Source: Pseudohaliea rubra DSM 19751 (GTDB lineage Bacteria; Pseudomonadota; Gammaproteobacteria; Pseudomonadales; Halieaceae). Taken from it: a DNA stretch of 64,000 bases. Below, one piece after another: positions 62,688-64,000 of this stretch (position 1 is the first letter of the stretch; the number at the start of each line of letters is the position of its first letter). Position numbers and translations under genes: made by a program. A model generated the notes under the pieces. That model was not told the origin of the DNA and ran no database searches. It was given only the letters and a program-made list of their open reading frames with translations. The stretch lies in the NCBI RefSeq assembly GCF_000764025.1, contig NZ_KN234753.1, forward strand, positions 1 through 64,000, given 5' to 3'.

Positions 62688-63365
62688 ATGGAAAAGCGCG
62701 CGGTCATCCTCAGCTCCGGCGGTCTGGATTCCACCACCGTGCTGGCCATGGCCCGCGCTGAAGGCTATGCCTGCTATACGCTCAGCTTCGATTACGGTCA
62801 GCGCCATCGCGCCGAGCTGAACGCCGCCGTGCGGGTAGCGGCTGCCCTGGGCGACGTTGAACACAAGGTCGTTTCCCTGAACCTCGACAGCATCGGCGGA
62901 TCGGCGCTCACGGATGCCGCCATCGCGGTACCCGAGGAGGCCAGCGAGGGCATTCCCGTCACCTACGTGCCGGCACGCAACACGGTTTTCCTCGCCATCG
63001 CCCTGGGTTGGGCCGAGGTGCTCAATGCCCGCGATATTTTTATCGGGGTGAATGCGGTGGACTATTCCGGCTATCCGGACTGCCGCCCGGCTTTCATCGA
63101 GGCTTTCGAGCGCGTGGCCAACCTCGCGACGCGCGTCGGCGTGGAAGAGGGCGGTATTCGCATCCGCGCCCCGCTCATGGAACTGGGCAAGGACGCGATC
63201 ATCCGTCGAGGCATGGAACTGGGGGTGGATTACGGGCTGACAGTCTCCTGCTACCAGGCCACGGACGAGGGTCTGGCCTGCGGTCGCTGCGACGCCTGCC
63301 GGCTGCGCCGGGAGGGTTTTGCCGCGGCCGGCGTGGCAGACCCGACCCGCTACCGCAAAGGCTGA
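62688..63365 (+). CDS. queC: 7-cyano-7-deazaguanine synthase QueC
   Basis: 225 aa from ATG 62688, with GAGGG upstream. The PP-loop SSGGLDST (9-16) binds ATP, and four cysteines near the C-terminus ([18 protein letters not shown]) bind zinc. It turns CDG into preQ0. queD and queF are not in the window. Confidence 0.96.
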
Positions 63366-63449: not shown

Positions 63450-63525
63450 GGGTCGTTAGCTCAGTTGGTAGAGCAGTTGGCTTTTAACCAATTGGTCGCT
63501 GGTTCGAGCCCAGCACGGCCCACCA
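63450..63525 (+). tRNA. tRNA-Lys (TTT anticodon)
   Basis: A 76-nt cloverleaf with encoded CCA. The anticodon loop CTTTTAA gives anticodon TTT, and the D loop AGCTCAGTTGGTAGAGC and T loop TTCGAGC are standard. An integrase gene faces its 3' end 117 bp away, so it is a probable integration site. Confidence 0.96.
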
Positions 63526-63561
63526 TTTTTTCTGGCTTGCAGCGTGAAGAAGCACTTACAG

Positions 63562-63590
63562 CTTCCCCACAGCAGCGCCTCTTCCCCACA
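63562..63590. repeat. 10-bp direct repeats between tRNA-Lys and the integrase
   Basis: CTTCCCCACA occurs at 63562-63571 and 63581-63590, a 19-bp period. The position, in the attachment region next to the integrase, fits integrase arm-type or accessory sites. Confidence 0.45.
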
Positions 63591-63642
63591 AAATCCCGAA
63601 AAGTTGCTCTAGCAGGTCCCCCTAAGGCTCAGGCTGCATGAG

Positions 63643-64000
63643 TCAGGCCTTCGACTCCTTGATGGTGAAGCCGGGTGCTGGCGTGGCCGTTTGCCCCCGT
63701 CGCCGGTAATGCTGCCGGGTCAGCTGGGTTGAGGAGTGCGCCAGCAGCTGGCTGGCCTGAAGGTCGGTTTCCAGATCGGACCCTACCTTCGCGCGCAGGT
63801 CATGCTCAGTGAACCGCTCCTCAAGCCTGGTTTCCTCCAGGGCCTTCTTCATGGATCGCTGCCATACGGACTGGAAGCCCGAGGCAGAGCGCGTTTCCAG
63901 GTCGTAGTAGGACTCCCCTTTCCGGTTGTGGAATAGCCAGGGGGAGATGACCGGACGGCGCCGCTTGCTGTTCTCCTGTTCGAAGTAGGCCTCGACCACG
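63643..64000 (-). CDS. Tyrosine-type site-specific integrase, C-terminal part (cut by window edge)
   Basis: The last 119 residues are visible; the gene begins beyond the right edge. The catalytic box HDLR (in FTEHDLRAKVG) and the later LLAHSSTQLTRQHYRR, with its His and the nucleophile Tyr, match the C-terminus of tyrosine recombinases. It points toward tRNA-Lys, the usual arrangement for islands or prophages inserted at a tRNA 3' end. The first catalytic Arg lies outside the window. In place of the usual LGH before the nucleophile, the sequence reads LAH. Confidence 0.85.
   Translation of the reverse strand, partial: VVEAYFEQENSKRRRPVISPWLFHNRKGESYYDLETRSASGFQSVWQRSMKKALEETRLEERFTEHDLRAKVGSDLETDLQASQLLAHSSTQLTRQHYRRRGQTATPAPGFTIKESKA

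Follow-up and report, generated by a model that had tools for sequence, protein, structure and literature searches.

A mobile island of about 16 kb at tRNA-Lys in Pseudohaliea rubra, with putative integrase arm sites and signs of an older relative behind it

The window, a 64,000-nt stretch of Pseudohaliea rubra DSM 19751, corresponds to positions 1-64000 of the 100,544-bp contig C9, with the same coordinates in both. Close to its right end lies queC (62688-63365, + strand), the conserved left host flank of the site, outside the island described here. It is followed by a tRNA-Lys gene with anticodon TTT (63450-63525, + strand; ARAGORN), the attachment gene, left intact because the island supplies a copy of the 3' part. 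The 3' part of a tyrosine integrase gene, 118 codons, fills the end of the window (63643-64000, - strand), and the full gene (C9:63643-64749) encodes 368 amino acids. The full protein matches Phage_integrase (E 9.3e-10), and the tyrosine recombinase residues R203, K226, H316, R319, H338 and Y348 are all present in the alignment. In the same alignment, the related integrase of genome G325 has D at column 203, and those of G333 and G051 have N/Q at column 316, by variation or misalignment (G numbers denote the genomes compared, P. rubra being G000).

The first-pass annotation had described a tyrosine integrase facing the 3' end of the tRNA-Lys gene, with 10-bp direct repeats of 19-bp period in the gap, and both descriptions hold. 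The 3' end of the integrase gene, at 63643, faces the tRNA, with 117 bp between its stop codon and the tRNA end. The direct repeat CTTCCCCACA is exact, its copies lying 19 bp apart at 63562-63571 and 63581-63590 (both + strand), and in the whole window it occurs at just these two places (two on the + strand, none on the - strand). When the 117-bp gap was shuffled, an equal repeat at spacing 18-19 arose in 0 of 2000 shuffles, and one at any spacing from 8 to 59 in 2 of 1000. The two copies are putative integrase arm sites, named P'1 and P'2.

The tRNA gene had also been proposed as the left boundary of a mobile island, to be checked by looking for a repeat of its 3' end farther right. Such a repeat is present. 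The 58-bp core at the tRNA (attL, 63473-63530, + strand) runs from tRNA position 24 to just past the CCA, and a second exact copy (attR) lies in the same orientation at C9:79312-79369, 15,839 bp away and to the right of the window. ARAGORN finds no tRNA gene at this second copy. A 47-base core pattern, allowing up to three mismatches, has two copies in the P. rubra genome, the other one not being a tRNA gene. Between the core copies, G+C is 0.573, against 0.664 at positions 1-63400 and 0.661 to the right of the second copy; the low-G+C stretch runs on past the second core to about 84000. All the marks of an Islander-type island are found, with an intact tRNA gene at one end, a displaced 3' fragment at the other end and an integrase between them. 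As read from its sequence, the mobile island of about 16 kb in tRNA-Lys is an ordinary, known kind of element, now mapped with both its ends.

For the contents of the island, 16 of its ORFs were scanned with Pfam, and four of the 16 (int, the DUF4224 gene, the small ORF and AlpA) were also run against PHROGs. Directly upstream of int lies an excisionase-like DUF4224 gene (64759-65271, - strand; PHROG 'excisionase'), followed by a DUF429 gene (65205-66239, + strand) and two ORFs without a family (66354-67052, - strand; 67754-68308, + strand). The next three genes, in a row on the + strand, are PDC-M33A (68731-70635, E 6.4e-75), PDC-M33B (70632-71486, E 1.5e-28) and PDC-M33C/DUF6339 (71483-72250, E 9.3e-28). 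A type II restriction-modification (R-M) set comes directly after, also on the + strand, formed by a 5mC methyltransferase with HTH (72688-74028), Vsr (73853-74479) and an EcoRII-C nuclease (74344-75681). An HNH_2 gene (75732-76838, - strand), an IS3-type transposase pair (76864-78098, + strand), a small ORF (78264-78749, - strand) and, at the far end of the island, AlpA (78592-78885, - strand) complete the series. The HNH protein shows a weak resemblance to phosphorothioate-DNA restriction enzymes, scoring 45 bits where the cut-off is 180. The cargo appears to be mainly R-M and candidate defence genes.

PDC-M33 is a PADLOC candidate system, and on sequence grounds it is regarded here as a candidate defence set. 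Relatives of M33A were found in 3 further genomes of 390 (E 1e-10). In the stretches fetched from these, Vsr and methyltransferase matches lie near M33A in all three, the methyltransferase match being weak in G264 (E 7e-5); M33B was seen in G264 only and M33C in G264 and G438, so that G264 carries A, B and C, at 63-67% identity. GHKL-like motifs can be recognized in M33A by eye, and the sequence has no match in Pfam, NCBIfam or PDB; the integrase likewise has no match in a PDB sequence search. A literature search by name, PDC-M33 or DUF6339, found no paper. In the literature, paraMORC/GHKL ATPases are linked with 5mC methyltransferases and Vsr/R-M genes (PMC2292703, PMC8011034). M33A resembles them in its place beside a 5mC methyltransferase and Vsr, but differs in being without a Pfam, NCBIfam or PDB sequence match.

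The first-pass annotation had left the choice between a genomic island and a prophage. The island part stands. As for a prophage, the scan of the 16 island ORFs turned up no capsid, portal, terminase large-subunit or tail family (Pfam; four also with PHROGs). The element might nevertheless be a remnant prophage, whose phage ancestor would have shed its structural genes. In the relative G040, a prophage relies on the same integrase family, and of five proteins scanned from that element, one is a terminase and another a tape-measure protein; the nearest phage integrases among the best 20 of 40 matches are those of Halomonas and Xanthomonas phages (36% and 34% identity). For AlpA there is also a weak match to a terminase small-subunit family (E 2.5e-6), ranking below its best PHROGs matches, which are excisionase/regulator families. 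Yet the cargo is of the R-M and candidate defence type, and the related element of G021, likewise small at 12.9 kb, has R-M genes of a type III-like kind (ResIII and N6/N4 methyltransferase genes) as well as an MqsA-like antitoxin. A phage origin by loss of structural genes is considered quite unlikely. The integrases found in plasmids (3 records) and in phages (best 20 of 40) all show less than 60% identity.

It is possible, if on balance doubtful, that the island is a mobilizable element or phage satellite, transferred by a helper and still moving today. The intact integrase, the excisionase-like gene, AlpA and the size of 15.8 kb would suit such an element, but no helper was identified, and relaxase, replication and packaging families are absent from the 16 island ORFs in Pfam, as are conjugation and type IV secretion families.

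The integrative island appears to have an older neighbor. Just past the second core, at 79550-79663, a 38-residue match to the integrase C-terminus (66% identity) is found, accompanied by its own pair of sites, TTCCCCATA at 79472 and TTCCCCACA at 79491, 19 bp apart. Taken alone this pair is weak, being equalled in 30 of 2000 shuffles. We read this remnant as the left end of an older, truncated relative pushed aside by the present island. Since a same-family integrase remnant with its own site pair lies beyond attR, the site holds a stack, and a single plain island was rejected. No third att copy closing the older element was found in C9:63001-100544 except for a 12-base match at 94977, and the whole genome has just the two core copies (up to three mismatches).

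Between the second att copy and the conserved flank, C9:79790-84514 carries Fic, glutaredoxin/MauE(-like) and TonB receptor genes at about 60% G+C, unmatched on the G001 contig that bears the same flank. With the G+C dip reaching about 84000, these Fic, MauE-like and TonB genes could be part of the older relative. In G051 (L150, L155), GTGTCAAC repeats flank an apparent first element, with a family-A integrase behind a displaced core, as judged by eye; this is likely another stack.

The site was then compared among relatives. queC is present in 53 of 58 genomes, P. rubra included, and 30 loci were examined. A tRNA-Lys gene lies 60-487 bp downstream of queC in 26 of them, two of which end less than 200 bp past the tRNA. 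As for the remaining four, the contig ends in G016, the core lies 1.7-1.8 kb off in G014 and G049, and it is 37.6 kb off in G021. In this last genome, the queC-to-tRNA-Lys gap (C6:223637-261272) thus replaces one of about 100 bp, by an insertion or a rearrangement between the two genes. Conserved synteny of the integrase across the family, which the first-pass annotation had set against an island, was rejected, as an integrase of one of the two families tested follows the tRNA at 7 of the 26 loci. Family A (the P. rubra type) is found in P. rubra itself and in G040, a member of the same family as the host, and family B in five genomes (G001, G004, G017, G046 and, partially, G019). A further integrase, below the Pfam cut-off, is likely present at the site in G033.

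The sister species G001 carries after the tRNA, on contig C20, a family-B integrase differing from that of P. rubra, with a displaced core at position 1153 of contig C46. The flavin oxidoreductase, thioesterase and MalQ genes of the P. rubra right flank are found on C46 too, at 82-84% DNA identity, and the stretch from core to flank differs between the two genomes. C20 and C46 would join through the insert. As a right-flank marker, the acyl-CoA thioesterase worked, and the TonB receptor was useless, giving weak matches in 7 of 7 genomes. No empty allele with both flanks was found among the genomes compared, the sole genome of the same genus among them, G001, being occupied. A stretch of 3,285 bp is 100% identical between G001 (L091 1-3285) and G040 (L098 3776-7060), which belong to two genera. 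It includes the second kind of tRNA-Lys integrase, whose protein is also identical in G017. This identity across genera reflects either a very recent transfer or cross-assembly.

Of 390 genomes in the order, 14 (P. rubra included) have a related integrase at E 1e-30, besides G040 and a fragment in G035. A scan of genome contigs for the integrase returned five loci, two of which apparently correspond to G021 and G040. Eight related integrases lie beside a tRNA-Lys core, in G000, G021, G040, G325, G132, G333, G035 and G051 (a displaced core). Exactly two core copies, at up to three mismatches, are present in all five genomes G325, G132, G333, G051 and G035, on different contigs in G132, G051 and G035. 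Seven elements with both ends (the eight without G051) were compared, their exact repeats measuring 45-62 bp.

Distances of the sites were measured to TTTTAACC on the far side and from after the CCA on the integrase side. With six-base words, an inverted site (P2) lies at 54-56 in 7 of 7 elements (in G040 with one mismatch) and a direct site (P1) at 119-121 in six, the seventh being G333 at 132. On the integrase side, a P' pair spaced 18-19 bp is found in all seven, some matches having one mismatch. In five elements P'1 lies at +34 to +36 and P'2 at +52 to +55; in G021 and G035 the pair is at +55/+74. In P. rubra, the sites lie at 63562 and 63581, at 79255-79264 (inverted) and at 79190-79199 (P1). 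The words themselves are TCCCCA (G000, G333), GTCCCA (G040, G325), GTGCCA (G021), GTACTA (G132) and GTCTCA (G035). Additional one-mismatch occurrences are present elsewhere in G000, G040, G021, G333 and G132 (5/7) and in G035.

The six-base words were picked after the upstream sequences had been seen, and a motif-free scan served as control. When the two sides of the core were compared, all seven elements had their longest exact inverted match 53-58 bp from the core (10, 7, 11, 12, 10, 9 and 10 bp). The mean is 9.9 within elements versus 7.0 between elements, the between-element matches reaching 12 bp, as long as the best within-element one, and 2 of 20000 partner permutations reached the observed sum. 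Among direct matches, the longest falls at 119-134 in 5 of 7 elements; in G000 and G021 the P1 position did not come out best. In shuffle tests of single elements, the P2 match is strong only in G021 (0/500) and G333 (1/500) and weak alone in G000 (22/500), G040 (109/500), G132 (19/500), G035 (21/500) and G325 (55/500, out of register). Automatic pairing in this test put G325 and G132 out of register, and the word-based and motif-free scans are used in its place.

Among more or less distant integrases, 14 loci were read, two of which (G109 and G375) were dropped as another ORF than the integrase had been picked. A direct repeat of at least 7 bp at spacing 17-21 was flagged in 6 of the 12 readable loci (G021, G000, G325, G132, G333 and G248) and was absent from G141, G051, G210, G309, G322 and G388; by eye, a 6-bp pair at spacing 19 can be made out in G051 and a 13-bp pair at spacing 22 in G322. 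In the tRNA-Phe element of G248, GTTCCGAAATT occurs twice at spacing 19, and in Xanthomonas phage PBR31, CTATGACCCA occurs twice at the same spacing, beside a tRNA-like core. L122, L124 and L125 (phage QHHSV-1) have no pair beside the integrase, L123 shows no more than an 8-mer at spacing 21, and the sequence of L127 does not extend past the gene.

That the 19-bp repeats are a matter of chance or a terminator feature rather than integrase sites is highly improbable. CTTCCCCACA is short, the pairs of G035 (69/2000 shuffles) and of the P. rubra remnant are individually weak, and the loci of distant integrases and of QHHSV-1 that have no such pair point the same way, but the pair, its spacing and the inverted partner at 53-58 bp are preserved across seven elements with a word that varies, and PBR31 and G248 both have their pairs at spacing 19. 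The CTTCCCCACA repeats are best read as integrase arm sites, to which the integrase would bind.

A lambda-type attP consists of a core with short repeated arm sites on both sides, and a small excisionase gene lies beside int. The P. rubra island is similar in that repeated sites flank the core and a small excisionase-like gene adjoins int, and differs in its two P' sites 18-19 bp apart, its inverted P2 at about 56 bp and a word that varies. It also resembles the prophage-like element of G040 (integrase 41% identical, pair at spacing 18) and phage PBR31 (34%, pair at spacing 19); unlike the island, both of these are phage elements, and the core of PBR31 is apparently tRNA-Ser-like, as judged by eye. 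By the proposed mechanism, the lambda-type tyrosine integrase would integrate the island as a circle into the 3' part of tRNA-Lys, the crossover taking place inside the common 58-bp core. The anticodon loop is the most likely crossover position, because the shortest of the seven repeats (G035) begins there. As the sequence shows, the island's copy of the 3' part rebuilt the tRNA, and the displaced 3' end marks the far end. Once joined, the two island ends would make up an attP containing four arm sites: a direct P1 and an inverted P2 would flank the core on one side, and the direct pair P'1 and P'2, spaced 19 bp, on the other. Their positions come from the comparison; the N-terminal domain of the integrase would bind them and bridge them to the core. 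The DUF4224 protein or AlpA might act as the excision factor, and the insertion would displace the left end of the older, truncated relative, giving a stack.

The DNA to the right of 63473 is thus very likely a 15.8-kb integrative island, inserted by its integrase at tRNA-Lys, equipped with predicted P' arm sites and stacked on an older relative. Two att copies, intact integrase residues, a xis-like gene beside int, the stack and a conserved geometry can be read from the DNA, and the island may be mobile to this day.

Comparable islands are described in the Islander catalogue, which lists 125 tandems with at least 2 islands in the same tRNA, and also anticodon-centred sites (PMC4383910). The island shares with them the tyrosine integrase, the whole tRNA at one end, the displaced fragment at the other, the anticodon-centred type of site and the tandem array; it does not differ from them in kind, though in this stack the second member is decayed. 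Two further papers place pKLC102-type ICEs of P. aeruginosa after the tRNA-Lys beside queC (PA0976), with 45-bp repeats and with the region empty in one strain (PMC9495688), and PsICEs of P. syringae at att-2 near queC, with 52-bp repeats (PMC10945833). By these accounts, the queC-linked tRNA-Lys is an already published hot spot in Pseudomonas. The P. rubra site has the same order of queC and tRNA-Lys, with direct repeats. Set against the same accounts, the pKLC102-type ICEs measure 80-165 kb and use a XerC/XerD-type integrase, whereas the island measures 15.8 kb and has another integrase, and, unlike these ICEs and the PsICEs, it shows no conjugation family among its 16 scanned ORFs.

A subfamily of tRNA-Lys integrases might maintain a rigid attP geometry, with the inverted P2 at about 56 bp and the P' pair at 18-19 bp, and the arm-site word, changing between elements, could serve as an address for stacking. 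This idea is speculative and rather unlikely. The word does not track identity over the N-terminal 62 residues, which is 37% for G000-G333 (same word) versus 42% for G000-G040, and 50% for G040-G325 (same word) versus 53% for G040-G021. Moreover, the P. rubra island and the remnant stacked behind it share the word TCCCCA. Both observations argue against a simple address-and-insulation reading.

What had been a one-sided guess is now a mapped element with both ends placed, and its cargo includes the uncharacterised PDC-M33 set. Relatives outside Pseudomonas are seen to use the queC-linked tRNA-Lys for insertion. The seven natural attP sites, nearly constant in geometry but different in arm word, provide material for testing how arm specificity evolves and whether stacked elements are insulated by it. 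If the arm word were indeed an address, it would let related islands and phages share one tRNA gene with limited cross-excision.
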